64,000 nucleotides of DNA from Microbispora catharanthi. Its GTDB lineage: Bacteria > Actinomycetota > Actinomycetes > Streptosporangiales > Streptosporangiaceae. Under the pieces are notes generated by a model that was not told the origin of the DNA, ran no database searches, and saw nothing but the letters and a program-made list of their open reading frames with translations. Location: positions 124,001-188,000 of the forward strand of contig NZ_VDMA02000019.1 in NCBI RefSeq assembly GCF_006334915.2, in the 5' to 3' direction. Positions 18,655 to 54,333 of this stretch are shown here, one piece after another. Numbering within the stretch: the first letter of the stretch is position 1; each line of letters starts with the position of its first letter. Both the position numbers and the translations under genes were made by a program.

Positions 18655-19265
18655 GCCGCCCCGTGGACGGTCCGGCGAAGGAGCAGGGCGGCAGGCGGGC
18701 CGAGACGCGGCAGCGGCTCTACCGGGCCGCGGCCGACCTCATCGCCGAGCAGGGCTTCGCCGCCACGACCGTCGACGCGATCGCCGAACGCGCGGGGGTG
18801 GCCAAGGGCACCGTCTTCTACAACTTCGGCAGTAAGGAGGCGCTGTTCGCCGGCCTGCTCGACCACGGGATCGAGCGGCTCGCCGACGCCCTCGCCGAGG
18901 CCGCGCGCGGCCCCGCCGCCTCGCCGGTCGCCGTGCTCGACGCGCTCATGCTCGCCCAGCTCCGCTTCTTCGACGAGTACGGGCCGTTCGCCCGGGTGCT
19001 GCTTGCCGAGATGTGGCGGGCGGCCTGGCAGGACGCCGTCCTGCGGCTGCGTACGAGCGTGCTCGCGGTGTACGAGCGGGTTCTCGCGGACGCCGTGGAG
19101 GCAGGCGAGCTGCGCCCCGGCCTCGACACTGGCACCGCCGCCACGGCCGTCTTCGGCATGGTGCTCACCGTCGCCATCGAGCGTCGCGCGCTGCGCCCCG
19201 ACCAGCCGGTCGAGGACGTGCACGCGACCCTGGCCGAGCTCGTCCACCGCCGCATCTCGCCCTGA
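18651..19265 (+). CDS. TetR/AcrR-family regulator
   Basis: A 204-residue regulator. The N-terminal HTH is clear: RLYRAAADLIAEQGFAATTVDAIAERAGVAKGTVFYNFGSKEALF. The ligand domain has no recognisable subtype. The GTG at 18651 overlaps the YhgE stop (GTGA), so it is the third gene of the operon. It probably represses the operon through the TetR-like operator at 15438-15451. An in-frame GTG 12 bases downstream is an alternative start. Confidence 0.9.
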   Translation: MSRPVDGPAKEQGGRRAETRQRLYRAAADLIAEQGFAATTVDAIAERAGVAKGTVFYNFGSKEALFAGLLDHGIERLADALAEAARGPAASPVAVLDALMLAQLRFFDEYGPFARVLLAEMWRAAWQDAVLRLRTSVLAVYERVLADAVEAGELRPGLDTGTAATAVFGMVLTVAIERRALRPDQPVEDVHATLAELVHRRISP

Positions 19266-32748: not shown

Positions 32749-33773
32749 GGGGCAGGGGCATCAACTACGACACCGGTTTCCTCCCGGGCGGGCACATCAG
32801 CAGGGAGACGTTCGACCCGGAGACGGTCCGCGCGGAGATGCGGGTCATCGCCGATGAGCTGCACTGCACCGCGGTCCGCATCACCGGCGGGCATCCCGAA
32901 CGGCTCAGCGTCGCCGCGCGGCACGCCGCCGAGGCGGGGCTGGAGGTGTGGTTCGCGCCCTTTCCCTGCGAGATGACGACGCGGGAGCTCGCGCCGTACT
33001 TCCTGGAATGCGCCGAGCGGGCCGAGGAGGTGCGGCGCGACGGCGCGGAGGTGGTGCTCGTGACCGGGTGCGAGCTGAGCTTCTTCTGCGCCGGTTTCCT
33101 GCCCGGGGAGACCTTCTTCCACCGCATGGCCGCGCTCGGCACGGGGGATTCCGAGCTGTACGCCCGGTTCGCCGAGATCCCCGCGCGGCTGAACCCCTTC
33201 CTGGCGGAGACCGCCGAGGCCGTCCGCGAGCTCTTCGGCGGACGGGTGACGTACGCCTCGGGCGACTGGGAGGACGTCGACTGGAGCCCGTTCGACATCG
33301 TCGCGGTGGACGCCTACCGCGACGAGCGCAACGCCGCGACCTACCGCGAGGAGCTGCGCTCCCGCTTCCGGTTCGGCAAGCCGGTGGCGGTCACCGAGTT
33401 CGGCACGTGCGCCTACACAGGGGCAGGCGCACGCGGCGGCATGGCGTGGGCCATCGTGGACTACACCGTGAATCCGCCCCGGCTGGACGGCGACTACCGC
33501 CGCGACGAGGGCGAGCAGGTCCGCTACCTGCGCGAACTGCTCACCGTGTTCGAGGAGGAGGGCGTGGACAGCGCCTTCTGGTTCACCTTCGCCGGCTACA
33601 ACACGACGTACGACCCGGACCCGCGCAGCGACCTCGACATGTCCTCCTACGGGGTGGTCCGGCTGCTAAAGGACGGCGGCAGGGAGCCGAAGGCGGGCGG
33701 CAGGGAGCCGAAGGCGGGCGGCAGGGAGCCGAAGGAGGTCTTCCACGCCCTCGCCGCCGCCTACTCCGGCTGA
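32745..33773 (+). CDS. Glycoside-hydrolase-like TIM-barrel protein of unknown specificity
   Basis: A 342-residue cytosolic protein. The start RGINYDTGFLPG and later segments suggest a (beta/alpha)8 glycosidase barrel; VTGCELSFF could supply an acid/base glutamate and AVTEFGTCAYTGAG a nucleophile glutamate at barrel strand ends. No signal peptide. I cannot name a GH family. The C-terminus has two and a half perfect 21-base repeats. It overlaps the VC0807-like gene by four bases and the convergent FadD19-like gene by 13 bases at its 3' end. Confidence 0.75.
   Translation: MRGRGINYDTGFLPGGHISRETFDPETVRAEMRVIADELHCTAVRITGGHPERLSVAARHAAEAGLEVWFAPFPCEMTTRELAPYFLECAERAEEVRRDGAEVVLVTGCELSFFCAGFLPGETFFHRMAALGTGDSELYARFAEIPARLNPFLAETAEAVRELFGGRVTYASGDWEDVDWSPFDIVAVDAYRDERNAATYREELRSRFRFGKPVAVTEFGTCAYTGAGARGGMAWAIVDYTVNPPRLDGDYRRDEGEQVRYLRELLTVFEEEGVDSAFWFTFAGYNTTYDPDPRSDLDMSSYGVVRLLKDGGREPKAGGREPKAGGREPKEVFHALAAAYSG
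33675..33734 (+). repeat. Perfect 21-base tandem repeats in the glycosidase-like gene
   Basis: Two full 21-base units (33675-33695, 33696-33716) and 18 bases of a third (33717-33734) encode GGREPKA-GGREPKA-GGREPK. Identity between units is complete, pointing to recent expansion by slippage. Confidence 0.9.
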
Positions 33774-35371
33774 CCCGCGGCCGGCTGAGATGCGACGGCG
33801 GCCACCTGGCCGGCCCACCGGTAGTCGGCCTTGCCCGCCGGGGAGCGGAGGATCTCCTCCACGAACGCGTAGGTCCGCGGCACCTTGTAGCCCGACAGCC
33901 GGGTGCGGCAGTGGGCGTCGAGCTGCTGCGCCGTCGGCGAGGTCCCGTCGTACGGCTGGACGACGGCCGCGACCCGCGAGCCCCAGCGTTCGTCGGGGAT
34001 GCCGGTGACCACGGCGTCGAACACGGCGGGATGCCCCTTGAGCACCGCCTCGACCTCCTCGGGGAAGACCTTCTCCCCTCCGGTGTTGATGCACTGGGAT
34101 CCGCGGCCGAGGATGCGGATCGTGCCGTCCTCCTCGACCGTGGCGAGGTCGCCGGTGAGCAGCCACCGGACGCCGTGGGCGTCGGTCACGAAGGTGCGGG
34201 CGGTCTTGTCCGGGTCGTTGTGGTAGCCGGACGCGATCCGGCCGGTCCTGGCCACGGTGCCGATCCGCCCCGAGCCCGGCTCGACCGGGGTCAGCGTCTC
34301 GTCCAGCACGGCGAGGGAGGCGCTGGCGTTGGGCCGGTAGCGCAGGCCCGACTCCGGCGACGATCCGTCGACGGCGGACGCCGTGTATCCGGACTCGGTC
34401 GAGCCGAAGTTGTCGAGGATCATCCGGCCCGGCAGGAGCTCCTCCAGCCGGGCGCGTACGGCCCCACTGAGGATCGCCCCGGTCGAGCTGAGCGCGAACA
34501 GCGACGACAGGTCGTAGGAGCCCGCAGCGATCTCAACGGCGAGCGGGCGGGCCATCGCGTCGCCGGTGATGTTCAGGCTGACGACCTTCTCCCGCTCGAT
34601 CGCGCGCAGCACGGCGGCGGCGTCGAACCTGCGGACGTACACCATCGTGCCGCCCATCCACCAGGCGATGAAGGTGCCCACCTGCGCGGCGCCGTGCATC
34701 AGCGGCGCAGCCGTCATCATGACGATCGGCGACGCCGCGCCGTGCGCCTGCTCGATCACCGCCTCGGGCGTCTTCAGCGGCTCGCCGTACGGGTTGCCGC
34801 CGCCGAAGGCGTAGAACAGGTCCTCCGACCGCCACATCACGCCCTTGGGCATGCCGGTCGTGCCGCCGGTGTAGATGACATACACGTCGTCGCCGGACCG
34901 GGGCGGGAATCCCCTGCCCTCGGGCTGCCCCGCCACCGCCTCCTCGTACGGCACCGCCTCCGGCACGGCCGTGGGACCGCCGACGGCGACGAGGTGGCGC
35001 AGCCCGGGGACCTCGGGTGCGGTGGCCGCGACGCGGTCGTCGAACTCCACGTCGAACAGCAGGGCCTCGACGCCGGAGTCCCGGTAGAGGTAGAGCAGCT
35101 CCGACTCGACGTACCGGTAGTTGACGTTGACCGGCACGGCCCGCAGCTTCAGCGTCGCCAGCAGGCCCGCAACGTACTCCACCCCGTTGTAGAGCTGCAT
35201 GCCGACGTGGGTGCCGTGGCCGACGCCGTGCGCGGCCAGGTGGTGGGCGAGCCGGTTGGCGCGGGCGTCGAGCTCGGCGTAGGTCAGGCGGTCGTCGCCG
35301 CAGACCACCGCCACGCGGTCCCCGATGGCGTCGGCGAGCCCCTCGAAAAGATCGGCGTGGTTGAACTCCAT
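33761..35371 (-). CDS. Long-chain/steroid acyl-CoA ligase, FadD19-like
   Basis: A 536-residue AMP-forming ligase. The P-loop-like YTGGTTGMPKGVMW, GSTESGYTA motif, LTGDLATVEEDG and the C-terminal catalytic lysine region RSPAGKADYRW are present. GDAMARPL, YDLSSLF, GGEKVFPEEVEAVLKGHP and RSPAGK-DYRWA closely recall mycobacterial FadD19, the ligase for the C-24 branched sterol side chain. It is the last gene of a five-gene minus-strand operon with Ltp3/Ltp4/OB-fold partners. Substrate is inferred from resemblance and context. Confidence 0.88.
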   Translation of the reverse strand: MEFNHADLFEGLADAIGDRVAVVCGDDRLTYAELDARANRLAHHLAAHGVGHGTHVGMQLYNGVEYVAGLLATLKLRAVPVNVNYRYVESELLYLYRDSGVEALLFDVEFDDRVAATAPEVPGLRHLVAVGGPTAVPEAVPYEEAVAGQPEGRGFPPRSGDDVYVIYTGGTTGMPKGVMWRSEDLFYAFGGGNPYGEPLKTPEAVIEQAHGAASPIVMMTAAPLMHGAAQVGTFIAWWMGGTMVYVRRFDAAAVLRAIEREKVVSLNITGDAMARPLAVEIAAGSYDLSSLFALSSTGAILSGAVRARLEELLPGRMILDNFGSTESGYTASAVDGSSPESGLRYRPNASASLAVLDETLTPVEPGSGRIGTVARTGRIASGYHNDPDKTARTFVTDAHGVRWLLTGDLATVEEDGTIRILGRGSQCINTGGEKVFPEEVEAVLKGHPAVFDAVVTGIPDERWGSRVAAVVQPYDGTSPTAQQLDAHCRTRLSGYKVPRTYAFVEEILRSPAGKADYRWAGQVAAVASQPAAGQPE

Positions 35372-35389: not shown

Positions 35390-36538
35390 TCAGGGTTTAC
35401 TGCTGCCGACGATCCACATCGCGAAGAACTGGGCGCCTCCGCCGTACGCGTGGCCGAGCGCGAGGCGCGCCCCCTCCACCTGGTGCTCCCCCGCCATGCC
35501 CCGCACCTGGAGCGCCGCCTCGGCGAAGCGGATGAGGCCGGAGGCGCCGATCGGGTTGGACGACAGCACGCCGCCGGAGGCATTCCACGGGGTGTCGCCG
35601 TCGAGGGCCGTGCACCCGGCCTCGGTGAGCTTCCAGCCCTCGCCCTCGGCGGCGAAGCCGAGGTTCTCCAGCCACATCGGCTCATACCAGGAGAACGGAA
35701 CGTACACCTCTGCGACGTCGATCTCCCGGCGCGGATCGGTGACCCCGGCCTGGCGGTAGACGTCGGCGGCGCAGTCGCGGCCCGCCCGCGGGCTGACGAC
35801 GTCGCGGCCCGCCACCGTGATGGGCTCCGAGCGCATCGCCGTGCCGTGGATCCAGGCGGGCGTGCCGGTCACCTTGTCCTCGGCCGCGAGCACCATCGCG
35901 CAGGCGCCGTCGGACGACGGGCAGGTCTCCAGGTAGCGGATCGGCTCCCACAGCATCGGGGTCGACTCGACCATCTCCCGGTTGATCCCGGGGATGCGCA
36001 GGTGGGCGTACGGGTTCTTCAGCGCGTTCAGCCGGTCCTTGACCGCGACCAGCGTGCCGACGTGGTCCGGCGCGCCCGACCTGCGCATGTACTCCCTGAT
36101 GTGCGGCGCGAAGTAGCCGCCCGCGCCCACCACCAGGGAGGCGTTGAAGGGCAGGTGCGTGGTCAGGGCCCAGGTGGCGTTCGACTCCGACTGCTTCTCG
36201 AAGGCGACCACCAGCACCCGCCCGTGCACCCCGGCCTGGACGAGCGACGCGCCGACCAGCGCGGTCGAGCCGCCGACCGAGCCCGCCGTGTGCACGCGCA
36301 TCACCGGCTTGCCGGCCGCGCCGAGCGCGTCGGCGAGGTACGCCTCCGGCATCATCACGCCCTCGAACAGGTCGGGGGCCTTGCCGATGACGACCGCGTC
36401 GATGTCGGCGAACGTCAGGCCGGCGTCCTCGAGCGCCCGCAGGGCGGCCTCGCGGACCAGCCCGGCCAGCGACACGTCCCGCCGTCTGGTCTGGTAGCGG
36501 GTCTGGCCCACGCCGATGACGGCACAGCGGTTTCCCAC
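35390..36538 (-). CDS. Thiolase-fold lipid-transfer protein, Ltp3-like (steroid side-chain aldolase)
   Basis: A 382-residue thiolase-superfamily protein. N-terminal GVGQTRYQTRRRDVSLAGLVREAALRALEDAGL is typical of SCP2-thiolase-like proteins. Where degradative thiolases have the nucleophilic cysteine this protein has TAGSVGGSTAL, so it is not a classical thiolase. The C-terminal NASGGVLSSNPIGASGLIRFAEAALQ segment is also present. Relatives act as retro-aldolases on steroid side chains with an OB-fold partner. The GTG at 36538 has GGGAG. It is in one operon with the Ltp4-like and double OB-fold genes. Confidence 0.87.
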   Translation of the reverse strand: MGNRCAVIGVGQTRYQTRRRDVSLAGLVREAALRALEDAGLTFADIDAVVIGKAPDLFEGVMMPEAYLADALGAAGKPVMRVHTAGSVGGSTALVGASLVQAGVHGRVLVVAFEKQSESNATWALTTHLPFNASLVVGAGGYFAPHIREYMRRSGAPDHVGTLVAVKDRLNALKNPYAHLRIPGINREMVESTPMLWEPIRYLETCPSSDGACAMVLAAEDKVTGTPAWIHGTAMRSEPITVAGRDVVSPRAGRDCAADVYRQAGVTDPRREIDVAEVYVPFSWYEPMWLENLGFAAEGEGWKLTEAGCTALDGDTPWNASGGVLSSNPIGASGLIRFAEAALQVRGMAGEHQVEGARLALGHAYGGGAQFFAMWIVGSSKP

Positions 36539-36547: not shown

Positions 36548-37585
36548 CTACGCGGACGTTTCGAGCACGGCGACGAGGTTCTGCTGCAGGCACGGTCCTG
36601 AGGTGGCGTGCGCCACCGCGCGGCCGGCCGAGCCGTCGAGGATCCGCCGGGCCGCCTCACCCACGCGGATCAGGCCGGCGGCCATGACCGGGTTGGCCGC
36701 GAGCGGCCCGCCCGACGGGTTGACCGTCACGTCGGCGGACAGGCCGAGCGCCTCGCGCAGGATCGGCTCCTCGTGGCTGAACTGGGTGTGGAGCTCCGCC
36801 ACGTCGACCGGGCCCTTGCCCACCCCGGCCGCCCGGCCCGCGTCGGCGGTGGACACCGACCGGGAGAGGTCGCGCATGCCCAGGTAGTGGGGCTCGGCGC
36901 GGTGCGCGATGCCGGTGATCCAGGCGGGTCGCCCGGCGAGCTCACGGGCGCGGTCCCCTGCGGCCAGCACCACGGCCGCCGCCCCGTCCGTGACCGGCGC
37001 GACGTCGTACGGCCGCAGCGGCTCGACCTCGAACTCCTCGCCTGAAGGATCCGGCAGGTCGAGGGCGTACGGATTGGCCCGGCCGTCCGCGCGGCTGCGC
37101 CGTACGATCTCGTCGAGCACGGCCCGCTCGGCGCCCGCGGCGGCGGCCTGCAGCGCGGCGTACGACACCTGGTCGAGCCCGAGCGGCGCCAGATAGTACG
37201 GGTCGAGCTGAAGCGTCATGATCTCCCGGATGTCCGACATCGACGACTTGCCGAAGCCGTAGACCAGCGCGGTGTCGATGTCGCCGTGCTGGAGCCGCAC
37301 CCACGCCTCGTACAGCGCGAAGGCGCCGTCCATCTCGACGTGGCTCTCGCTGATGGGCGGCCAGGCGCCGACCGCGTCGAGGGCCGAGACGAACGAGAAC
37401 GGCGCCCCGGCCAGGTAGTCGCACGAGCCGGAACACGTGAAGCCGAACCTCTTCAGCCCGGTCGCCCGCTTGACCTCGTCGATCACCGGCAGCAGCAGCT
37501 CCGGCTCGGCCAGCCCGGTGTCGTGGCCGGTGTGGACGGTCTGGGCGAAGGCGACGACGGCCACCTCGCGCACGAGCCCACTCAT
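36548..37585 (-). CDS. Thiolase-fold protein, Ltp4-like (steroid side-chain aldolase)
   Basis: A 345-residue thiolase-fold protein, shorter than true thiolases. The usual cysteine nucleophile site reads SHVEMDGAFALYEAW, lacking cysteine, and the C-terminal active-site region reads NPSGGPLAANPVMAAGLIRVGEAARRI. The overall pattern resembles mycobacterial Ltp4 and the Ltp2 aldolase. Its ATG overlaps the double OB-fold gene by four bases, suggesting a stoichiometric complex. With the Ltp3-like protein it would cleave a C24-branched side chain after hydration. Confidence 0.87.
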   Translation of the reverse strand: MSGLVREVAVVAFAQTVHTGHDTGLAEPELLLPVIDEVKRATGLKRFGFTCSGSCDYLAGAPFSFVSALDAVGAWPPISESHVEMDGAFALYEAWVRLQHGDIDTALVYGFGKSSMSDIREIMTLQLDPYYLAPLGLDQVSYAALQAAAAGAERAVLDEIVRRSRADGRANPYALDLPDPSGEEFEVEPLRPYDVAPVTDGAAAVVLAAGDRARELAGRPAWITGIAHRAEPHYLGMRDLSRSVSTADAGRAAGVGKGPVDVAELHTQFSHEEPILREALGLSADVTVNPSGGPLAANPVMAAGLIRVGEAARRILDGSAGRAVAHATSGPCLQQNLVAVLETSA

Positions 37586-38499
37586 CGGGCACCTCCGGTG
37601 GAGTCGTCGAGGTCGGCGTCCGGCTCCCCGGTCGGCTCGAACCACTTCACGTTGGTCATCGACAGCGTCCGCTCCTCGGGCGGCACCCACACGGCGTGCA
37701 CCCGCATGCCCTGCCGCACCTCGTGCGCCGGCACCCCGCCGATCAGCGTGATCATCGGCGTGTCCGCGCCGTCCAGCAGCACGTACGCGGAGACGAACGG
37801 CACCTCGGGAGCCCGGGGATCGGGCAGGTTGTTGATCGCGAAGGTGGTGACCGTGCCGGTGTCGGCGACCTCCACCTCCTCCTCGACGACCGAGCCGCAC
37901 GCGGGGCACGACTCGCGGTAGGGCACGTAGACGGCGGCGCACCCGGCGCACCTGCCGCCGACGAACCTTCCGTCGCGCACGCCCTCCAGGAACCGGGTGA
38001 GCGCCCGGCCCGGCGTGACGCGATACTCGGCCCGCACGGGCGCGACGAGCGAGGCGACCTCGGGCAGGAAGCACTCGATGTCCGTGATGTGCCCGGTGGT
38101 GGCGGCCCGCCAGCGCGGGCGCACCCGCATGCCCGGCCGCAGCGCCTTCGGGCTCCCCGCGTCCACCGCGTGGACGAGGGCCGTGTCGGCACCGTCGAGA
38201 CTGATCAACGCCCAGGCGAACGGCCGGTCGAGCGGGTGCCCGGGGCGCGGGGAGCCCACCCAGGCCCACGCCTGGACGGTCCCGGCCGGCCCGACCTCCA
38301 CGTACTCCTCGGTGACCGGCTCGCCCGTGTCCGGGTCGTACTCCAGCGGCGGCACCAGCACCCGCCCCCCGGCCGTACGGACCCCGACGAGCCGCCGGTC
38401 GCGCAGTTCGGTGAGGAACCGCCCGATGACCGGCCCGGTCGTCCGGGTGTAACCGCCGGGGAACTCCAGGACGTGCGTCGCGACCAGGTCCTCGGACAT
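37582..38499 (-). CDS. Tandem Zn-ribbon/OB-fold (DUF35) protein, partner of Ltp aldolases
   Basis: A 305-residue protein built of two DUF35 OB-fold halves. The second half carries the four-cysteine zinc ribbon CAGCAAVYVPYRESCPACG, while the first half lacks the ribbon cysteines. OB-fold strands such as TVTTFAINNLP and TVQAWAWVGSPRPG follow each linker. DUF35 proteins deliver acyl-CoA substrates to Ltp-type aldolases, as ChsH2 does for Ltp2. The layout matches the double protein next to Ltp4/Ltp3 in mycobacteria. The ATG at 38499 lies one base after the FadD stop. Confidence 0.88.
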   Translation of the reverse strand: MSEDLVATHVLEFPGGYTRTTGPVIGRFLTELRDRRLVGVRTAGGRVLVPPLEYDPDTGEPVTEEYVEVGPAGTVQAWAWVGSPRPGHPLDRPFAWALISLDGADTALVHAVDAGSPKALRPGMRVRPRWRAATTGHITDIECFLPEVASLVAPVRAEYRVTPGRALTRFLEGVRDGRFVGGRCAGCAAVYVPYRESCPACGSVVEEEVEVADTGTVTTFAINNLPDPRAPEVPFVSAYVLLDGADTPMITLIGGVPAHEVRQGMRVHAVWVPPEERTLSMTNVKWFEPTGEPDADLDDSTGGAR

Positions 38500-38500
38500 G

Positions 38501-40048
38501 TCAGATGGCACGGTCCCTGCCTTCCCAGTAGGGGGCGCGGAGCTTGCGTTTGAGCAGCTTGCCGTTGGGCTCGCGGGGCATCTCGTCGATGAAGTCGATC
38601 ACGCTCGGCCACTTCATGCGGGCCAGGCGGCCCTCCAGCGAAAGAACGATCTCCGCGGCCAGTTCCTGCCCGGGGACGGCGCCGGGCGCGGGCTCGACGA
38701 CGGCCATGATGCGCTCGCCCCACTCGTCGTCCGGGATGCCGAAGACGGCCACGTCGGCCACCTTCGGGTGGACCATGAGCTCCTTCTCGATCTCGGCCGG
38801 ATAGATGTTGGCCCCGCCCGAGATGATCATGTCGGCCTTGCGGTCGCAGAGGAACAGGAAGCCGTCCTCGTCCAGGTAGCCGATGTCCCCGACGGTGAAG
38901 TAATCGCGCAGCCGGTTGGCCGCGGTCTTCTCCGGGTCGCCCTTGTACTCGAAGGAGATGCCCATCTTCATGTAGACGGTGCCGGGCGTACCCGCGGGCA
39001 CCGGCGCGAGCTCGTCGTCCACGATCAGCAGCTCGCTGCCCGGCCAGGCCTTCCCGACCGTGCCCGGCCGCTTCTTCCAGTCCTCGGGGGTGGCGATCGT
39101 GCCGCCGCCCTCGGTGGCGGCGTAGTACTCGTAGATCACGTCGCCCCACCACTCCAGCATCTGCCACTTGACCGGCACCGGGCAGGGCGCGGCGGCGTGG
39201 ATCATCCAGCGCAGCGACGACAGGTCGTAGGAGCGCCGCGTCTCCTCGGGCAGCGACAGCAGCCGTTTGAAGTGCGTCGGCACCATGTGGGAGTTCGTCA
39301 CGCGGTGGCGTTCGCACAGGCGCAGGGTCTCCTCCGCGTCCCACTTGTCCATGAAGACAAGCGTGTGTCCCATGTGCAGCGCCGTACCGGCGAACTGGGT
39401 GACCGCCGTGTGATAGCTCGGCGACGTGACCAGGTGGGCGTTCGGCCGGCCCGGCGTCACGCCGAACAGCCGCAGCAGCCCCGTCATCAACTCGGCGGAG
39501 TCGTCGGGGTCGAGGCCGGTGAGCGCGCGCCGCACACCCTTCGGCCTGCCGGTGGTGCCCGAGGTGTAGTGCATGGTGGCCCCGGCCGTACGGTCGGGGG
39601 GCGTGCCGTCCGGCCTGCCGTCGGTCAGCTCGGCCACGGGCCGGAAGCCCTCGACCTCGCCGTAGGAGAAGCACCGGTCGGCGGCGATCCCGGCTTCCTG
39701 GGCGCCCCTGACGGCGTCCGCGGCGTACCGCTCGTGGGCGAAGAACGCGGCGGCCTCGCTGTCGGCGACGATGTAGCCGATCTCGGGCCCGGTGAGGTGC
39801 CAGTTGACCGGCGTGTAGTACCACCCCGCCTGCAGGGCGGCGAGGTAGAGCACGAGGCCGTCCGCGCCGTTGGGCAGCAGGCCGCAGATGCCGTCCCCGG
39901 GGCGCAGGCCCAGCTCGCGCAGGCCGTGGACCACGCGGTTGGCCTTGGCGAGCAGCTCGCCCGCGGGATGTTCCGTTCCGTCGGGATCGACCGCGGCGAT
40001 CCACGCCGGGTCTGCCTGCGCCAGCCTCCAGAAACCGAGTGAGCCCAT
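38501..40048 (-). CDS. Acyl-CoA synthetase (FadD family), first gene of sterol operon
   Basis: A 515-residue AMP-forming ligase. AMP-binding motif HYTSGTTGRPKGVRR, YEYYAATEGGG, TVGDIGYLDEDGFLFLCDRKADMIISGG and a C-terminal PNGKLLKRKLR lysine are present. It differs from the FadD19-like ligase of the same operon and may activate an alternative side-chain length or a propionate side chain. The ATG at 40046-40048 has GGGAG at eight bases. It begins the operon downstream of the KstR-like and KstR2-like boxes. Confidence 0.88.
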   Translation of the reverse strand: MGSLGFWRLAQADPAWIAAVDPDGTEHPAGELLAKANRVVHGLRELGLRPGDGICGLLPNGADGLVLYLAALQAGWYYTPVNWHLTGPEIGYIVADSEAAAFFAHERYAADAVRGAQEAGIAADRCFSYGEVEGFRPVAELTDGRPDGTPPDRTAGATMHYTSGTTGRPKGVRRALTGLDPDDSAELMTGLLRLFGVTPGRPNAHLVTSPSYHTAVTQFAGTALHMGHTLVFMDKWDAEETLRLCERHRVTNSHMVPTHFKRLLSLPEETRRSYDLSSLRWMIHAAAPCPVPVKWQMLEWWGDVIYEYYAATEGGGTIATPEDWKKRPGTVGKAWPGSELLIVDDELAPVPAGTPGTVYMKMGISFEYKGDPEKTAANRLRDYFTVGDIGYLDEDGFLFLCDRKADMIISGGANIYPAEIEKELMVHPKVADVAVFGIPDDEWGERIMAVVEPAPGAVPGQELAAEIVLSLEGRLARMKWPSVIDFIDEMPREPNGKLLKRKLRAPYWEGRDRAI

Positions 40049-40160
40049 ATGCCAGCTCCCTTTGTGGCCGCACTGCCGGGGCGTCCGCGGCGCGAGCGGC
40101 CCCGAAGTGAAGCACGCCGGCACGACGCTGACAAGACCTGGCAATGCGGAGCGACTCAGA

Positions 40161-40178
40161 TGAGAATCGGTTCTAGTT
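40161..40178. promoter_or_regulatory. KstR-like operator
   Basis: TGAGAATCGGTTCTAGTT has arms AGAAT and GTTCT around CG. Against the consensus TnnAACnnGTTnnA it matches six of eight defined positions in the better orientation. Position, upstream of a divergent pair of sterol genes, supports it more than sequence alone. Confidence 0.5.
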
Positions 40179-40211
40179 CTTGCGGGCAGACTAACCCCGC
40201 GCGCCATGTCT

Positions 40212-40225
40212 AACAAGCGCTTGAT
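40212..40225. promoter_or_regulatory. KstR2-type operator, exact consensus match
   Basis: AACAAGCGCTTGAT fits the published KstR2 palindrome AnCAAGnnCTTGnT at every defined position. It lies between the KstR-like site and the ribosome site of the hydratase gene, 34 bases upstream of its GTG. No KstR2-type repressor is encoded in this window. Confidence 0.65.
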
Positions 40226-40259
40226 CGAATCGGTGACGCCGCCCAGCTGGAGGACACCT

Positions 40260-41075
40260 GTGGAGCTCCTGCCCATCAGCACCCCGCACTGCCGGATCGA
40301 GCGCGACGGTCACGTGGTGATCGTCACGATGGACCGGCCCGAGGCCAGGAACGCGCTCTCACAGGACATGCTGGTGGGGCTCGCAGAGGCATGGCAGTAC
40401 ATCTCTGACGAGCCGGAGGTGCGGGTCGGCATCCTCACCGGCGCGGAAGGAACGTTCTGCGCCGGGGCCGACCTCAAGGCCATGGGCACGCCGTCCGAGG
40501 ACGAGCGGGTGCGCCACCGTGCCGCCGAGATCCCCGACTACCACTGGAAGGGCCTGCTGCGCGATCCCGAGGCGCTGCCCGCCAAGCCCATCGTCTGCGC
40601 GGTCGAGGGGTACGCCGTCGCGGGCGGCACCGAACTGCTCGTCGGCACCGACCTGCGCGTCGCCGGCGAGAGCGCCACGCTCGGGCTGTTCGAGGCGCGG
40701 CGGGCGCTGTTCCCGATGGGCGGCAGCGCCGTACGGCTGCCGCGCCAGATCCCGTACGCGTTCGCCATGGACGTGCTGCTCACCGGCAGGGCGATCACGG
40801 CGGCCGAGGCGCTCGCGATGGGCATGGTCAACCGGGTCGTGCCGGACGGCCAGGCGCTCGCGGCGGCCCGCGAGCTCGCCGGCCAGGTGGCCGCCTGCGG
40901 ACCGCTGGCCGTCCAGGCGATCCTACGCGCCTACCGCGAGACGCTGGGCATGCCGGAGGCCGAGGCCTTCAAGGTCTCCGACGCGATCGGCTGGCCGGTC
41001 ATCGGCTCCGAGGACGCCAAGGAGGGCTCCCGCGCCTTCCGCGACAAGCGCCCGCCGGTCTACCGGGGGCGTTGA
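40260..41075 (+). CDS. Enoyl-CoA hydratase, EchA19-like (steroid side chain)
   Basis: A 271-residue crotonase. The oxyanion-hole segments are AGADLKAMG (first) and AVAGGTELLVGTDLRVA (second); the glutamate in AGGTE is at the catalytic position. The segment TPHCRIERDGHVVIVTMDRPEARNALS opens the fold. It resembles the steroid enoyl-CoA hydratase EchA19 and would hydrate the unsaturated side-chain CoA before aldol cleavage by the Ltp pair. The GTG at 40260 is chosen because GGAGG lies six bases upstream; the ATG at 40206 would precede the operator. Confidence 0.88.
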   Translation: MELLPISTPHCRIERDGHVVIVTMDRPEARNALSQDMLVGLAEAWQYISDEPEVRVGILTGAEGTFCAGADLKAMGTPSEDERVRHRAAEIPDYHWKGLLRDPEALPAKPIVCAVEGYAVAGGTELLVGTDLRVAGESATLGLFEARRALFPMGGSAVRLPRQIPYAFAMDVLLTGRAITAAEALAMGMVNRVVPDGQALAAARELAGQVAACGPLAVQAILRAYRETLGMPEAEAFKVSDAIGWPVIGSEDAKEGSRAFRDKRPPVYRGR

Positions 41076-46290: not shown

Positions 46291-47406
46291 TCACCCGTCG
46301 CCGGTGATGCGGCCGAGGCGCTCCATGGCCTCGATGTACTCCTCCACCATCTCGAAGACGACCTGTCTGGCCGGCTTGACCTGGTTCATCGCGCCGATGA
46401 TCTGACCGGCCGGGAACGTCGCCAGCTCGGTCGCGTCCGATCTGCCGATCCGCCGCAGCGCGTCGGAGATCAGCATGAACTGCAGCGGCATCGGCAGCGT
46501 GCCGGGCGACTCGGCCGACTCCCACGCGTCGGTCCACTCGTTCTTCAGCAGGCGGGCGGGCTTGCCGGTCCAGCTCCGCGACCTGACCGTGTCGCGGGAG
46601 GTGGCCGCGATGATGCGCTGCCGCACGGTCTCGGAGGTGTCGGCCTCCTCCACGGCCAGCCAGATCGAGCCGGTCCACACGCCTTCGGCGCCGAGCGCCA
46701 TGCCCGCGGCCATCTGGCGGCCGGAGCCGATGCCGCCCGCGGCCAGGACCGGCACGTCCACCGCGTCCACCACCTGCGGGATCAGCACCATCGTGGAGAT
46801 CTCTCCGGTGTGGCCGCCCGCCTCGGTGCCCTGCGCCACGACGACGTCCACGCCGACCTCGACCTGTTTGATCGCGTGGCGGGGTGTGGAGGCGAGCGCG
46901 GCCACCTTCACGCCCTTCGCGTGCGCCTGCTCCACGACGTCGGCGGGCGGCGGGCCGAGGGCGTTGGCGAGCAGCGCGATGGGATGCCGGAGCGCGACCT
47001 CGACCTGCGGCCGGGCGGTCGCGTCGGTCCAGCCGAGCAGCACCTTGCCGGAGTCGGAGCCGTCCAGCGGCGGGACGCCGTGCCGGGCCAGCAGGTCCTC
47101 CACGAAGGCCCGGTGCCCCTGGGGGATCATCCCCTGCAGCCGCGCCACGAGTTCGGCCGGGGAGTCCACGTCGAGGTCCGCGCCCTCGTAGGAGGCGGGC
47201 ATCACCACGTCGACGCCGTACGGACGGCCGTCCACGTGGTCGTCGATCCACTTCAGCTCGATCTCGAGCTCTTCGGGGGTGAAGTACAGGGCGCCGAGCA
47301 CCCCCATGCCGCCGGCACGGCTGACCGCGGCGACGACGTCCCGGCAGTGGCTGAACGCGAAGACAGGGAACTCGATACCGAACATGTCGGTGACACGTGT
47401 CCGCAT
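46291..47406 (-). CDS. Nitronate monooxygenase family flavoprotein, possible IpdC-like
   Basis: A 371-residue FMN-dependent TIM-barrel protein of the 2-nitropropane dioxygenase family. Motifs include FPVFAFSHCRDVVAAVSRAGGMGVLGA at the start, GTEAGGHTG for phosphate/FMN binding and PVLAAGGIGSGRQMAAGMALGAEGVWTGS. The family includes IpdC, used in late steroid ring degradation, and nitronate-detoxifying enzymes. A KstR consensus lies 29 bases upstream, favouring a steroid role. Classical nitronate detoxification cannot be excluded. Confidence 0.85.
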   Translation of the reverse strand: MRTRVTDMFGIEFPVFAFSHCRDVVAAVSRAGGMGVLGALYFTPEELEIELKWIDDHVDGRPYGVDVVMPASYEGADLDVDSPAELVARLQGMIPQGHRAFVEDLLARHGVPPLDGSDSGKVLLGWTDATARPQVEVALRHPIALLANALGPPPADVVEQAHAKGVKVAALASTPRHAIKQVEVGVDVVVAQGTEAGGHTGEISTMVLIPQVVDAVDVPVLAAGGIGSGRQMAAGMALGAEGVWTGSIWLAVEEADTSETVRQRIIAATSRDTVRSRSWTGKPARLLKNEWTDAWESAESPGTLPMPLQFMLISDALRRIGRSDATELATFPAGQIIGAMNQVKPARQVVFEMVEEYIEAMERLGRITGDG

Positions 47407-47434: not shown

Positions 47435-47452
47435 ACTGCAACGCGTTCTAGT
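47435..47452 (-). promoter_or_regulatory. KstR-type operator, exact consensus core
   Basis: ACTGCAACGCGTTCTAGT contains TGCAACGCGTTCTA (47437-47450), which fits TnnAACnnGTTnnA at all eight defined positions. It lies 29 bases upstream of the nitronate-monooxygenase-family ATG. Confidence 0.65.
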
Positions 47453-47664
47453 AAGCCGCACCGGACGGGTTCCTACCAACCGGTAACCAGGCGCCGAGAG
47501 GCGGCCGAAGGCCATGCGAGAACACGTTCCACGCGGCCGCCGCCTTCCTGCAAGCGACTCATGGGCACCAGACGTCACAGGGGTGACGACAGCTCACGGA
47601 CCAAAGTCAGATTTCATGACAATGCGGGATTGCGGCCATACCACCGGGGTCGTACCGTCCCACT

Positions 47665-48627
47665 ATGGATCTGGAGATCCGCCATCTGAGAATCGTGCAC
47701 GCGGTCGCCGAAGCCGGGAGCGTCACGAAAGCGGCCACCCGGCTCGGCCTCGCCCAACCGTCGCTCACCGCGCAGCTCAAGCGCATCGAGCGCTCACTCG
47801 GGGGTCCGCTGTTCGAACGCGACCGCAACGGCGCCCGTCCCACTCCTCTCGGCGAGATGGTGCTCGCCCGCGCCCGGGTGCTGCTGCCCGCCGTACGGGA
47901 CCTCCAGGAGGACGCGGTCCGGTTCGCCAACACCTCCGTCAAGCTGCCCGGCTACCGTCTCGGCGCGACGAACGGGCCCATACTCGGCGGGCTCGTCGAG
48001 CGTCTGACCGCCGACCAGCCGGGCATCCCGGTCACCACCCGCACGTCCTGGTCGGCCGGTGAGCTGACCGCGCTCGCCGTGGCAGGCCGGCTCGACTTCG
48101 TGCTGCTCGGGACGTGCGGCGACAGCCCGCCTCCCCCGGCGGAGGCGATGAACTGGACCACGGTCGGCACCGACCCGGTCTTCGTGCTCCTGTCCGAGGA
48201 CCACCCCCTCGCGGGGGAAAAGGAACTGGAGCTGTCGAGCCTCGCCGACGAACGCTGGACGGTCGCCCCCGGCGACGGCTGTTTCGCCGACTGCTTCGCC
48301 GCCGCCTGCTCCCGGGCCGGGTTCGTCCCCGAGTCCATCTACGAGACGGATGTGGCGACCTGCCTGCACCTGGTCGGGGTGGGCAAGGCGGTCGCCCTGT
48401 GCCAGGCCACCTTCCTGCTCACCGCCGGGCTGGTCATGATGCCGCTGGCCGGCGCGCCGCTGCGCTGGCGGCACCTGCTCGGCTGGCACGCCGACTCGAT
48501 CGGCGCACGGGCCGCCGCCCCCGTCGTCGCCGCCCACGCCAGGGCCGCGTACGCCGACGCGGTGCGGCGCAGCGCCCGCTACGCCGACTGGCTCGTCACC
48601 AACCCCGAATACGGAGCGGTTCCCTAG
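47665..48627 (+). CDS. LysR-family transcriptional regulator
   Basis: A 320-residue LysR protein with winged helix DLEIRHLRIVHAVAEAGSVTKAATRLGLAQPSLTAQLKRIE and a type-2 binding-protein effector domain. The N-terminus is close to the truncated LysR remnant at 15251, suggesting both belong to one actinomycete LysR subgroup. It is divergent from the nitronate monooxygenase-family gene over 258 bases; whether it controls that gene is unknown. Confidence 0.9.
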   Translation: MDLEIRHLRIVHAVAEAGSVTKAATRLGLAQPSLTAQLKRIERSLGGPLFERDRNGARPTPLGEMVLARARVLLPAVRDLQEDAVRFANTSVKLPGYRLGATNGPILGGLVERLTADQPGIPVTTRTSWSAGELTALAVAGRLDFVLLGTCGDSPPPPAEAMNWTTVGTDPVFVLLSEDHPLAGEKELELSSLADERWTVAPGDGCFADCFAAACSRAGFVPESIYETDVATCLHLVGVGKAVALCQATFLLTAGLVMMPLAGAPLRWRHLLGWHADSIGARAAAPVVAAHARAAYADAVRRSARYADWLVTNPEYGAVP

Positions 48628-50172: not shown

Positions 50173-50211
50173 GCTCCCCCGCCGGCCCGTTTCCCGGGTC
50201 AGCGGGGGAGC
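50173..50211. terminator. Bidirectional terminator between protease and dprE2
   Basis: GCTCCCCCGC (50173-50182) and GCGGGGGAGC (50202-50211) are perfect arms. The hairpin lies just past the protease stop and its right arm covers the end of the convergent dprE2 gene. Confidence 0.7.
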
Positions 50212-50975
50212 CTTCGCCATAGGGGCCGGGGCAGCAGCAGCATGACGGCGAACGCGAGCCGCAGCCGGGCGGGCACCCACACGATCACCTTCCGCGTGTC
50301 CAGGGACTCCACGACCGCGTCCGCGACCTCGGCCGCCGTCACCGACATCGGGGCGGGGGTCATCCCCCGCGTCATCCGGCCGATCACGAACCCCGGCCGG
50401 ACGACCACGACCCGGGCCCCGGAACCGTGCAGCGCGTCGGCCAGTCCCTGGGCGAAGCCGTCCAGCCCGGCCTTGGCCGAGCCGTACACGAAGTTGGCCT
50501 TCCGCACCCGTACGCCGGCCACCGACGACAGCACGACGAGCGTGCCGTGGCCCTGCTCGCGCAGCCGCCGTGCCGCGGCCAGGCCGATCGAGACGTGTCC
50601 GCCGAAGTTGACCGCGACGTCGCGGGCGGCGGCGACCGGGTCGGCGTCGTAGACCGCCTGGCTGCCGAGCACGCCGAACGCCGGGATCACCACGTCGAGG
50701 TCGCCGACCTTGGCGGCGGCCTCCTCGATCAGGGCGGCGTGCGTCTCCGGGCGGGCGGCGTCGAAGTCCAGCACATGGACCTCGGCCCCGAGCCGTTCGA
50801 GGTCGTCCACCGGCGCGGTGCCGCCGCCATCCTTCATGGACGCGGTGGCGTCACGCGCCGCGAGCACGACCCTGCGGGCGCCCCGCCGGACCAGCCGCTC
50901 CACGATCGCGAGGCCGATCTCGCTGCGCCCGCCCAGCAGCAGGACGGTGTCGACCGAGCCCAGCGCGTTTCTCAT
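50199..50975 (-). CDS. dprE2: Decaprenylphosphoryl-2-keto-ribose reductase-like SDR (DprE2)
   Basis: A 258-residue short-chain dehydrogenase. The variant cofactor motif VLLLGGRSEIGLAI and catalytic SSVAGVRVRKANFVYGSAKAGL with Ser, Tyr and Lys are present, matching the mycobacterial DprE2 pattern. With DprE1 it epimerises decaprenylphosphoryl-ribose to the arabinose donor. The ATG at 50973-50975 has GAGGGAG; the GTG six bases upstream lies on the ribosome site. It follows dprE1 with a 22-base gap and is probably the last gene of the dpr operon. Confidence 0.88.
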   Translation of the reverse strand: MRNALGSVDTVLLLGGRSEIGLAIVERLVRRGARRVVLAARDATASMKDGGGTAPVDDLERLGAEVHVLDFDAARPETHAALIEEAAAKVGDLDVVIPAFGVLGSQAVYDADPVAAARDVAVNFGGHVSIGLAAARRLREQGHGTLVVLSSVAGVRVRKANFVYGSAKAGLDGFAQGLADALHGSGARVVVVRPGFVIGRMTRGMTPAPMSVTAAEVADAVVESLDTRKVIVWVPARLRLAFAVMLLLPRPLWRRLPR

Positions 50976-50997
50976 GGCCACTCCCTCGACGACGGAA

Positions 50998-52335
50998 TCA
51001 GCACAGGCGCAGCCTACGGGCGAGATCGGAGACGAAGACGCCGTCCGGGTCGGCCCGGCGCCGGATCTCCCGCCATTCCCCCAGCCGGAGGTACGTCGCG
51101 GCCATGGTGGTGGCCGACATGCGGGAGTCCTTGGCCAGGTAGAGGCGGCCCCCGGCCGCCGCGACCCAGCCGTCGAACTCGGTCAGCATCGCGGCCAGCC
51201 CGCTCTGCCCGGCCGGGATGTCCAAGGCCAGCGTCCACCCCGGCATCGGGAACGACAGCATGCCGGGCGTCCCCGCCCCGAACCTCTTCAGCACGGTCAG
51301 GAACGACACGACCCCCGCGCCGGACAGCCGCTCGACCACCCGGCGCAACGTGTCCTCCGCCCCGAGCGGCACCACGAACTGGTACTGCACGAAGCCGCGC
51401 GGGCCGTACATCCGGTTCCAGCCGTCCACCCCGTCAAGAGGGTGGAAGAACGGCGCGACGCCCTGGGCGATCCGGCGCGGGGTGGCGGGGGCCTTGCCAT
51501 ACCAGGCGGCGTTGAAGGCCCGCACCGTGGCCCGGTTGAGCAGGCCGCCGGGCGCCCAGGGCGGGGCGGACAGCAGAGGCCGCGGCGCGAAGGCGAGGGG
51601 GTTCCCGCGCGCGCGGGCGGGCAGGTCGCCCGGCGCGGCGTGGTCGCCGCGGGTGAGCACGCCCCGGCCCATCCGCCCGCCCCGCGCGAGCAGGTCGATC
51701 CACGCGACCGTGTAACGGTGACCGTCGTCGGTCGCGGCCATCGTCTCCAGGGTCTGGTCGAGGTCGCGAGTGCGCTCGACGTCCACCCGCATCCACGCGG
51801 TCTCGATCGGCACGCACTGGAACGTCGCCTCGACGATGACGCCGGTCAGCCCCATGCCGCCCACGGTGGCCCAGAACAGGTCGTCGCCCGGTTCGAGCGT
51901 ACGCACGCTTCCGTCGGCGGTGAGCAGGCGCAGCGAGCGCAGGTGGGCCCCGAAGGAGGAGTCCACGTGGTGGTTCTTGCCGTGCACGTCGGCCGCGACG
52001 GCCCCGCCGACCGTGACATAGCGGGTGCCGGGGGTCACCGGCACGAACCAGCCGCGCGGGACGAGCGCGGTCATGAGGTCGTGCAGGCTCACCCCCGCCG
52101 AAGCGGTGACGAGCCCGGTGGAGTCGACTCGCCATGACGGTTCCAGCGCCGTGCAGTCGAGCACGAGGCCGCCCGCGTTCTGCGCGGCGTCGCCGTACGC
52201 GCGGCCGAGGCCGCGGGCCACGACTCCGCGCCGGCCCGCCTTCGCCACGAGTGCGGCGGCCTCCTCGGCGGTGCGCGGGCGGGCCACCGTCGCACGCGTG
52301 GGCGCGGTGCGCCCCCATCCCGTCAGCAGCATCAT
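50998..52335 (-). CDS. dprE1: Decaprenylphosphoryl-ribose oxidase-like flavoprotein (DprE1)
   Basis: A 445-residue FAD oxidase. The start LTGWGRTAPTRA, the FAD loop PVTPGTRYVTVGGAVAADVHGKNHH and the C-terminal RLYLAKDSRM with catalytic lysine (K401) mark DprE1. In the segment SFPMPGWTLALDIP the residue equivalent to the benzothiazinone-reactive Cys387 of M. tuberculosis is alanine (A370). It oxidises decaprenylphosphoryl-ribose to the 2-keto intermediate. Its start overlaps the UbiA stop (ATGATG), so the three dpr genes form an operon. Confidence 0.9.
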   Translation of the reverse strand: MMLLTGWGRTAPTRATVARPRTAEEAAALVAKAGRRGVVARGLGRAYGDAAQNAGGLVLDCTALEPSWRVDSTGLVTASAGVSLHDLMTALVPRGWFVPVTPGTRYVTVGGAVAADVHGKNHHVDSSFGAHLRSLRLLTADGSVRTLEPGDDLFWATVGGMGLTGVIVEATFQCVPIETAWMRVDVERTRDLDQTLETMAATDDGHRYTVAWIDLLARGGRMGRGVLTRGDHAAPGDLPARARGNPLAFAPRPLLSAPPWAPGGLLNRATVRAFNAAWYGKAPATPRRIAQGVAPFFHPLDGVDGWNRMYGPRGFVQYQFVVPLGAEDTLRRVVERLSGAGVVSFLTVLKRFGAGTPGMLSFPMPGWTLALDIPAGQSGLAAMLTEFDGWVAAAGGRLYLAKDSRMSATTMAATYLRLGEWREIRRRADPDGVFVSDLARRLRLC

Positions 52336-53276
52336 GCCAGTTGGATACCGCATGCCAGCAGGATCAGCATCAGCGCGAGGAACACCTGGAGCGGCCGGTC
52401 GCGCAGCACCAGTTCCTCGGGTTCCTCCCCCACCCCACGGTCGACCAGCAGCGCGTGCCGCAGCACGACCAGCACGAACGGCACGATGCTGAGCGCGCAG
52501 AACGCCCTGGCCGGCCCGGTGTGCTCCTGGAGCGCCCACAGGCAGTAGGTGACGATCATCGCCCCCGAGGCCATGACGCGCACGTGACCGAGGTAGCTCG
52601 CGGTGTACGTCTCCAGCGTGGCCCGGGCGACCCGGCCGTCCCCGGGCCCGGCGCGGAGCTCGGCCTCCCGCTTGCCGGCCACCAGCAGCAGCGAGCCGAG
52701 CGAGACGACGACCAGGAACCAGCTCGTCACCGGCACGGCCACGGCGACCGCCCCCGCGTACGCGCGCACGACGTGGCAGCCGGCCACCGCGACCAGGTCC
52801 ACCACGGGCTGGTGCTTGAGCCAGAGGGTGTAGGAGAAGGTGAGCGCCAGATAGGCGGCGACGACGGCGGCGAGCGGCCACCCGCCCGCGAGCCCGGTGA
52901 GCAGGCCGGCCGCCAGCAGCGCCGCGCCCGCGGTCCGCGCGAGCCGCACGGACACGATCCCGGCCGCGATCGGGCGCAGCCGCTTGCGGGGGTGGCGCCG
53001 GTCGGCGGCGACGTCGGCCGCGTCGTTGAAGAGGTAGGAGCCGCTGGCGGCCAGGCAGAAGGCGGCGAACGCGACGAGCGAGCCGCGCAGTCCCGCCCCG
53101 GTGGTCAGCACGCCGGCGGCGGCCGGGGCGGCGAAGACGAGCGCGTTCTTGAGCCACTGCCGGGGCCGGCAGGCCCGCAGCAGCCCCGCCGCCCGCGAGC
53201 GCCGGGAGGGCGTGCCCGCCGGAGGCGTCGCCACCGGCGGGCCCATCGGCGGGTTCAGTGCGCTGTCCCGCTTCAC
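52332..53276 (-). CDS. Decaprenyl-phosphate phosphoribosyltransferase-like UbiA protein
   Basis: A 314-residue membrane prenyltransferase. The first Asp-rich motif LFNDAADVAADRRHPRKRLRP and the second YTLWLKHQPVVDLVAVAGCHVVRAYAG (read in parts) and seven to eight helices mark the DPPR-synthase branch of UbiA. It would attach phosphoribose from PRPP to decaprenyl phosphate, the precursor for DprE1. The GTG at 53276 is chosen for its place after the DUF3068 stop; the N-terminus is somewhat long and ATG 53246 is possible. It is in one operon with dprE1 and dprE2. Confidence 0.88.
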   Translation of the reverse strand: MKRDSALNPPMGPPVATPPAGTPSRRSRAAGLLRACRPRQWLKNALVFAAPAAAGVLTTGAGLRGSLVAFAAFCLAASGSYLFNDAADVAADRRHPRKRLRPIAAGIVSVRLARTAGAALLAAGLLTGLAGGWPLAAVVAAYLALTFSYTLWLKHQPVVDLVAVAGCHVVRAYAGAVAVAVPVTSWFLVVVSLGSLLLVAGKREAELRAGPGDGRVARATLETYTASYLGHVRVMASGAMIVTYCLWALQEHTGPARAFCALSIVPFVLVVLRHALLVDRGVGEEPEELVLRDRPLQVFLALMLILLACGIQLA

Positions 53277-53296
53277 GGGTCGGCCGGCTTCCCGGG

Positions 53297-54226
53297 TCAG
53301 TCCACGCGGCCCGGCCGCAGCAGCAGCCACACTCCGACGACGGCGAGCGCGAGCCCGAGGATGAGCGCCACCAGCGGGAGCGTCGTCTTGATCAGCGTGA
53401 TCTGGGCCATGTTGTCGCGGGCCGTCTGGACGAGCTCGCCGACGGTCTCCGGCGTGAACGAGGCGGTGGCGATGAGGGCGGGCATGCGCTCGACGCCGTC
53501 GGCCGTCTTCAGCACCTCGTGGCGCTGCTGCTCCTGCTTGACCGGGACGCCGGTGGTCGGCTCGACCCAGAAGGTGTTCACGCCGTCGTAGACGCGGTCG
53601 ACCTGGATGTCGCCCGTCCCCTTCATGCCGAGCACGGAGGCGGGCGCGCTGAGCTTCTCGATGGGCGTCGGCGGGATCCGCTGCACGAAGCGGTAGACCG
53701 TCAGGCCGTTGACCGTGTCCTCGCCGTCGAACGTCGCGTCGTACGCCTTGCGGGTGTCGGTGTTGAACACCTGGTAGGTCTTCTTCTCGACACCGAACGG
53801 GAACAGGAAGATCTGGCCCTGCAACTGCACCGGCTGCGCGCCCGATCCGCTGTTCACGCTCGTGCCGCAGCAGGTGACGCCCTGGCCGTTGTATTTGTTG
53901 AACGCGCTGCGGAACTGCGTCATGGAGATCTGCGGATTGTTGTTGGTCACGTCGTTGGCGTTGGTGAACTGGTCCCACACGACGTGGTCGTCCTTGGCGT
54001 CCTTGACGTCGCCCCTGGTCGTGACCGTGATGTCGAGGGTGCCGGTGAGGACCTTCAGATCCCGCTTGCTGAAGTACTGCGCGTTCTCGGCGGTCAGCCG
54101 TGTGATGCTGTACTGGTTCGCCGGCGCCTGCACGAGTTTGTCCGCGACCTGGAACCTCAGCAGCGGCGCGAGAACGACAAGGAACGCCCCGAGTCCTACG
54201 AGGACCACTCCTAATCCGCGGCGCAT
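53297..54226 (-). CDS. DUF3068 (PorA-like) membrane-anchored protein
   Basis: A 309-residue protein with an N-terminal helix (GLGVVLVGLGAFLVVLAPLL), a large extracytoplasmic domain containing YDATFDGEDTVNGLTVYRFVQRIPPT and WVEPTTGVPV, and a C-terminal helix (LPLVALILGLALAVVGVWLLL). This is the DUF3068 family found near arabinan genes in mycobacteria (Rv0227c locus). Function is unknown. It heads the dpr operon by position. A second member lies at 58306-59301. Confidence 0.88.
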   Translation of the reverse strand: MRRGLGVVLVGLGAFLVVLAPLLRFQVADKLVQAPANQYSITRLTAENAQYFSKRDLKVLTGTLDITVTTRGDVKDAKDDHVVWDQFTNANDVTNNNPQISMTQFRSAFNKYNGQGVTCCGTSVNSGSGAQPVQLQGQIFLFPFGVEKKTYQVFNTDTRKAYDATFDGEDTVNGLTVYRFVQRIPPTPIEKLSAPASVLGMKGTGDIQVDRVYDGVNTFWVEPTTGVPVKQEQQRHEVLKTADGVERMPALIATASFTPETVGELVQTARDNMAQITLIKTTLPLVALILGLALAVVGVWLLLRPGRVD

Positions 54227-54333
54227 CGCTCCTCCTGGGGCAGGCCAGCTACTGCCTATTTGTCCTGAAACACGTTCCTATTTCGCTGTATGTTAGACGG
54301 GGCAGTGACCGACGTCACCAGGGATGCGGAAAA

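Follow-up and report, generated by a model that had tools for sequence, protein, structure and literature searches.

Does a single divergent promoter that carries operator-like palindromes of both the KstR and the KstR2 type place a steroid side-chain module under two repressors, and which proteins would read the two sites? This question is raised by a 64,000-nucleotide stretch of Microbispora catharanthi DNA (referred to as the window, C10:124001-188000 of a 9.25 Mb genome), in which a sequence-only reading had noticed both palindromes between an acyl-CoA synthetase operon and an EchA19-like hydratase gene and had proposed dual control by regulators of the side-chain and of the ring/HIP genes. 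The analysis described here followed the two palindromes, referred to as K1 (KstR type) and K2 (KstR2 type), through related genomes and searched for their cognate repressors.

The divergent promoter and its flanking genes

The window hydratase has the PDB EchA19 entries as its top matches and scores 345 bits with the EchA19 model NCBIfam NF051848, below the cutoff of 400 (Table 1). The divergent FadD reached the cutoff in none of the 25 NCBIfam models listed, and among the genes behind it the lipid-transfer/thiolase-like protein, the thiolase-domain protein and the second acyl-CoA synthetase are presumably Ltp4-like, Ltp3-like and FadD19-like, respectively. Searches with tblastn found the order of this six-gene module kept in 8 of 10 stretches from relatives; in the other two, G057 and G043, the genes are arranged differently, with echA19 next to the FadD19-like gene. 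The window EchA19 protein shares 97% identity with its counterpart in Microbispora siamensis NBRC 104113, which PMC9782250 names as one of 7 species carrying steroid-degradation genes in a set of 52 that are thermophilic or thermotolerant.

Table 1. Location of the promoter elements, flanking genes and candidate repressor genes (positions of the window unless a contig, C, is given)
Feature	Location	Strand	Basis
Second acyl-CoA synthetase	33761..35371	-	NCBIfam PRK07798 682 bits, cutoff 543
Thiolase-domain protein	35390..36538	-	NCBIfam PRK08313 695 bits, cutoff 514
Lipid-transfer/thiolase-like protein	36548..37576	-	NCBIfam PRK07937 507 bits, cutoff 419
ChsH2-type OB-fold/zinc-ribbon (DUF35) protein	37582..38511	-	Pfam PF01796, PF12172
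Acyl-CoA synthetase (FadD), divergent from echA19	38501..40048	-	AMP-binding domains
Putative decayed second KstR-type box, fadD side (TAGATCACGTTCTC in other families)	40107..40126	.	upstream alignment
Possible echA19 core promoter: CTGGCA, 18 bp, GAGAAT; -10 inside K1	40138..40167	+	inference only
K1, predicted KstR-type operator GAGAATCGGTTCTA, other strand TAGAACCGATTCTC	40162..40175	.	1 mismatch to the lineage-form pattern TAGAAYNNRTTCTA
Conserved block GCAGACTAACCC between K1 and K2	40186..40197	.	alignment of 35 paired loci
K2, predicted KstR2-type operator AACAAGCGCTTGAT	40212..40225	.	perfect match to AnCAAGnnCTTGnT
echA19 ribosome binding site GGAGG	40249..40253	+	by sequence
echA19-like enoyl-CoA hydratase	40260..41075	+	PDB EchA19 277 bits; NCBIfam PRK07799 364 bits, above cutoff 316
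KstR-like TetR repressor gene (L056)	C9:39574-40230
KstR2-like repressor gene, type A	C1:66603-67283
KstR2-like repressor gene, type B	C11:238858-239478

Both palindromes are as the sequence-only reading described them: K2 agrees with the KstR2 consensus at all defined positions, and K1 with 6 of 8 positions of the KstR box TnnAACnnGTTnnA. The hydratase gene most likely starts at the GTG at 40260, behind the GGAGG, and K2 would therefore sit in the echA19 leader. An alternative start, the ATG at 40206, was rejected, as it is not conserved in the upstream alignment. A sigma-70 consensus scan of the K1/K2 promoter region found no promoter. In the upstream alignment of paired loci CTGGC is seen repeatedly, in many of the loci, and the sole well-conserved stretch between the two boxes is GCAGACTAACCC, the reverse of which (GGGTTA) may be the -35 element of the fadD promoter.

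Within the scope of the search, no gene for either KstR or KstR2 turned up in the window, in keeping with the claim that it holds no repressor gene, but a TetR-family frame at about 18600-19265, after an ABC-type gene region, scores weakly with the model of the KstR2 C-terminal domain. MerR and LysR regulators are present elsewhere in the window.

Some observations concern other parts of the window. A nitronate-monooxygenase-like gene (46291-47406) is followed by two KstR-like palindromes, TGCAACGCGTTCTA (47437-47450) and GAGAACACGTTCCA (47518-47531), and then by a LysR gene (47665-48627). Further on, the short spacer separating a PgfA/PorA-like gene (53297-54226) from an acyltransferase gene (54334-55674) contains TGAAACACGTTCCT (54266-54279). 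The region 50199-54226 consecutively encodes a DprE2-like reductase, an FAD-binding oxidase and a PgfA-like envelope lipid protein; genes of these types are usually discussed for mycolic-acid bacteria.

Conservation and spacing of the two boxes

A GTDB scan returned 100 EchA19 relatives, of which 80 loci were kept; 15 of these (L317-L331, 38-41% identity) were excluded before the orthologue counts, leaving the 65 loci with at least 74% identity. Boxes were searched in the 330 bp upstream, allowing up to one mismatch for K2 and up to two for K1. K2 was found in 54 of the 65 loci, 33 of them with a perfect box (reversed control 3), K1 in 46 (reversed control 0) and both in 35, counts in which related species are non-independent samples. 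One hundred permuted patterns per box gave means of 0.45 (maximum 17) for K2 and 0.25 (maximum 5) for K1. These results bear out the proposal of two operator types in a single divergent promoter serving a side-chain-like module, and show both to be conserved across many genera.

All eight same-genus echA19 orthologues have a perfect K2. Loci titled Actinomadura, Actinoallomurus or Thermomonosporaceae carry K2 in 0 of 9 cases and instead two K1 boxes in all 9, and outside these titles K2 is present in 54 of 56 loci from 12 named genera. K2 therefore looks like a gain in one line, presumably that of the Streptosporangiaceae.

The distance between the boxes is nearly fixed. When each K1 was paired with the nearest K2 20-120 bp downstream, the start-to-start distance was 48-52 bp in 33 of 35 pairs and 57 and 60 bp in the remaining two, while the distance from the paired K2 to the start codon ranges about tenfold, from about 27 to 260 bp. 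Rearranged loci are also informative. In nine loci fadD no longer adjoins echA19, and all nine retain K2 at echA19; five of them retain the K1-K2 pair, 50-51 bp apart, beside fadD, and the other four have K2 beside fadD without a K1 at up to two mismatches. Ten further loci have a divergent fadD and K2 with no K1 at this threshold, and in seven of these only 59 bp separate the fadD and echA19 matches. Two K2 boxes were seen upstream of echA19 in L256 (Microbispora corallina) and in the Microtetraspora loci L262, L270, L275, L284 and L288, one of them pairing with K1 and the other lying about 30 bp before the start codon.

Candidate repressors

A search of the genome for KstR and KstR2 homologues, on which the dual-control proposal depended, showed that both kinds are encoded. 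With the M. tuberculosis KstR sequence as query, confirmed against the solved KstR chains, the best two of 64 matches in this genome were L056 (C9, 37% identity) and L057 (C11, 31%), which score 144.3 and 112.1 bits with the KstR model NCBIfam NF033703, below its cutoff of 280. L056 is divergent from an acyl-CoA dehydrogenase gene, and the promoter between them has TTAGAATCCGTTCTAGTTT, which is almost the window K1 with its flanks; the window AGAATCGGTTCTAGTT and the AGAATCCGTTCTAGTT of the L056 promoter are identical at 15 of 16 bp. A box of the TAGAAnnnnTTCTA type lies upstream in 29 of 30 L056-type loci (up to two mismatches), and in the thirtieth, L137, the box matches only within the gene. 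L056 is present in 17 of 17 genomes, this one included, that have an EchA19 at least 69% identical; within the genus, L056 and the type A repressor described below occur in 15 of 15 genomes and echA19 in eight. L057, which adjoins a kstD-like gene scoring below its family cutoffs, was rejected as the K1 regulator, having no K1 (up to two mismatches) near its start, where L056 has one.

Two KstR2-like repressors, type A and type B, are encoded, with 39% identity to each other. They pull the family assignment in different directions: the tree groups the solved KstR2-type chains with type A at modest support (93/73), and overall identity instead brings them nearer to type B (50-51%, against 44% for type A). 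The best solved relatives of type A are 2ibd (178 bits) and the KstR2 structures 4w1u and 4w97 (169 bits), and its TetR_C_24 domain scores 72.9 bits, above the cutoff of 26.4. The recognition helix AGILSGSLYHHF of type A proteins in the genus recurs unchanged in the solved chains of M. tuberculosis KstR2 and of 2ibd, and type B differs there. Type A also has a K2-like box in its own promoter, AACAAGCTCTTGCT, 12 bp before the start codon; the box is conserved in the genus, perfect in 14 of 15 genomes, with CT or CC at its centre. An apparent single stop codon falls within the matched stretch of the type A relatives L119, L123 and L131 (G023, G015 and G027), and little was gained from searching plasmids with type A.

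Type B sits in a cluster resembling those for HIP degradation, with a FadD3-family ligase, a hydratase, presumably EchA20-like, two frames that were read as IpdA and IpdB with no family model matched, and a thiolase. Near the HIP genes on C11 and near L057, no K2-type box was found at zero or one mismatch. The promoter of the type B operon instead carries TCTAACAACTATTTGATAGA, or a form within three mismatches, in 11 of 11 loci examined, a set from which the remaining loci of the KstR2 search (type A or unclear) were excluded. The core of this operator (AACAAC/T...TTTG) is unlike K2 in 10 of the 11 promoters, and its TTTG is present in all 11.

The distribution of the two repressors also separates them. 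An EchA19 match was found in 24 genomes, and in 12 of them K2 (up to one mismatch) lies upstream; these 12, the present genome included, encode type A in all cases and type B in seven. The five with K2 and without type B are G006, G010, G012, G017 and G019, whose matches in the KstR2 search are type A proteins. Four of them (G006, G010, G012 and G019) combine echA19, K2 and type A with no type B and no ipdA at E 1e-50. From these four, HIP-CoA is probably not the ligand of type A, or not the only one. In G017, about 5 kb separate type A from ipdA, and the same cluster contains perfect and near boxes, placed between genes that were read as Ltp-like and FadE-like without a family scan; type A can therefore be tied to steroid genes. 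Where relatives of type A occur beyond the K2 group, as in G015 and G030, A-type boxes are present at type A itself and absent from echA19, and genus members without echA19 also have type A, which must therefore have other work there.

K2 was further compared with the M. tuberculosis kstR2 promoter probe tested by gel shift, which comes from PMC3068626; 16 of 20 positions agree, including 10 of 10 in the core CAAGCGCTTG. Taken together, the assignment of K2 to KstR2 holds in part: the box is of the KstR2 type by sequence, but the KstR2 of the HIP cluster has a different conserved operator, and type A fits K2 best.

A second paired promoter

The two boxes also meet at a C9 gene for a P450; among solved proteins, the best relatives of this P450 are of the CYP125 type (a reconstructed ancestor with 514 bits and CYP125 with 362 bits). 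The promoter of this gene has TAGAACACGTTTCA and, 25 bp off, AACAAGCGCTTGAC. K2 (up to one mismatch) occurs in 5 of 30 CYP125 loci, always 24-26 bp from K1, and the other 25 are without it. Only the echA19 and CYP125 promoters have a K1 (up to two mismatches) within 120 bp of a K2 (up to one mismatch) in the 0.73 Mb of this genome examined, where the 20 and 23 single sites give a random expectation of about 0.15 such pairs, in a sample that is non-neutral, part of it having been chosen for holding K1 or K2 sites.

A proposed two-signal gate and its alternatives

What the DNA shows directly is that both sites are conserved at a nearly constant distance, that homologous regulators are encoded and that these have boxes of matching sequence in their own promoters. 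On this basis, it is likely that the window holds a shared side-chain promoter in which K1 serves as the operator of the KstR-like L056 and K2 as that of type A, the two forming a two-signal gate. The module would be transcribed from this one promoter as fadD-DUF35-ltp4-ltp3-fadD in one direction and echA19 in the other. Bound by L056, K1 would probably cover both divergent -10 regions, with the putative echA19 promoter made of a GAGAAT -10 behind CTGGCA at 18 bp and the putative fadD promoter of a TAGAAC -10 behind GGGTTA at 16 bp. K2, about 40 bp into the presumed echA19 leader, would be bound by type A and act as a roadblock, blocking mainly echA19. Full echA19 expression would then need the release of both repressors, and the fadD operon would depend mainly on K1, so that one step is probably under the joint control of two related repressors. 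Binding, promoter positions, ligands and gate logic are the parts of this scheme that we infer. A wider account, offered tentatively and held with rather more doubt than belief, is that a KstR2 paralogue which kept its helix and operator was rewired to the side-chain genes of the Streptosporangiaceae as a sensor for something other than HIP-CoA, gated together with a KstR about five helical turns away, and that the KstR2 of the HIP cluster drifted to a new operator.

The most serious alternative is that K2 is bound by type B, the KstR2 of the HIP cluster, or by both types, and that the promoter truly links the side-chain and ring regulons. Type B is overall the nearer to KstR2 (50-51% against 44%), and between the arms of K2 in the window (TCTAACAA...TTGATCGA) and the type B operator 15 of 16 positions are the same. 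Among the eight genus genomes with echA19, the TCTAACAA arm is moreover found in 4 of 5 with type B and 0 of 3 without it, a correlation that may reflect shared descent. However, 5 of the 12 K2 genomes lack type B, the core of the type B operator and the helix of type B differ, and the K2 cores follow the type A box. This alternative therefore appears unlikely, and the bridge between side-chain and ring control suggested by the sequence-only reading is not a simple one, given the four genomes that have the box, echA19 and type A with neither ipdA nor type B.

It is less probable still, and in our view distinctly so, that K1 works alone and K2 is a leftover or the site of an unrelated regulator, for example of the LacI family. 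Operators of that family have the centre AAnCGnTT, and by column counts at least 52 of the 54 K2 boxes have a LacI-like CG at their centre. The genus type A promoters, on the other hand, have CT or CC there, and the KstR2 gel-shift probe shares the CAAGCGCTTG core of K2. K1 was not found beside echA19 in 19 of the 65 loci (up to two mismatches), and K2 is present in 19 of these 19; K2 is therefore no mere leftover.

Counting alone gives neither box any standing. In the window, the KstR2 pattern at up to one mismatch occurs once against 0.29 expected, with 26 of 100 shuffles having at least one, and 83 places satisfy the 6-of-8 KstR criterion. In the 9.25 Mb genome the perfect KstR2 pattern is found at 4 places, 2 of which (C33 and C55) fall within predicted reading frames, against 3 for the reversed pattern, and the stricter TAGAAYNNRTTCTA at up to one mismatch at 11 against 12 reversed. 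Across 15 genus genomes there are 39 perfect K2 places against 73 reversed: 14 at the type A gene, 8 at echA19, 2 at CYP125 and 15 elsewhere, the 8 at echA19 coming from all eight of these genomes that have the gene. Neither motif was thus enriched in genome-wide counts. The expected enrichment at other steroid genes gives a mixed picture, in which the CYP125 promoter is the only further one found to pair both boxes; the remaining K1-type places of the genome (C3, C66, C13, C9:39455, C9:4742, C2 and C33), in a partial look, gave no clear steroid regulon. That the resemblance is due to chance and has no regulatory meaning, as these background-level counts would allow, is contradicted by the conservation and spacing across many genera and is scarcely credible. 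Conservation and position, and not counts, set both boxes convincingly above chance.

One set of sites on C66 stands apart. Three near-identical AGAACGCGTTCTA boxes lie within about 4.2 kb (G000:C66:168931, 170382 and 173155; L096 and L097), around a gene read as IclR-like and an F420-type oxidoreductase gene, and are perhaps a separate regulon.

Comparison with known systems

A search of titles and abstract beginnings, including those for Microbispora and Streptosporangi-, found no description of a promoter under dual KstR/KstR2 control. The KstR2 regulon of mycobacteria and Rhodococcus (PMC3068626) shares with the present system the 14-bp palindrome, the TetR repressor, the recognition helix, autoregulation and boxes in divergent promoters. 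In those genomes, the predicted KstR2 boxes belong to three promoters each, every one close to kstR2, whereas here the box occurs next to one of the KstR type in the promoter of a side-chain-like module, and the regulator of the HIP cluster uses another operator. The caution follows that ring-degradation genes cannot be presumed wherever a KstR2 box is found, and the KstR2 family appears to split into two repressors with different operators. The near-fixed two-box promoter family across many genera suggests joint control, in contrast to mycobacteria, in which KstR and KstR2 are described as acting independently (PMC3068626). Ligand, operator code and gate logic thereby become testable in harmless soil actinomycetes.

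The KstR regulon, which covers the side chain and rings A/B (PMC9782250), has in common with this locus a palindrome of the K1 type ahead of echA19 and of acyl-CoA synthetase genes, and a KstR-like TetR repressor with its own box. It differs in that the core here is TAGAAYnnRTTCTA, with one C/G pair often changed, and in that the repressor shares only 37% identity and falls short of the KstR family cutoff. The two KstR-like genes of this genome, L056 and L057, agree with the 2-3 KstR paralogues reported for more distant actinomycetes (PMC3388012). In Nocardioides simplex, KstR sites were predicted in 71 operons and KstR2 sites in 29 (PMC7807495). In Mycobacterium sp. VKM Ac-1817D, two promoters are reported to combine a KstR site with a 'motif X' (PMC6593523). 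As at the present locus, one promoter there has sites for two steroid-linked regulators, but the second motif was likened to that of Rv0767c, and here it is of the KstR2 type.
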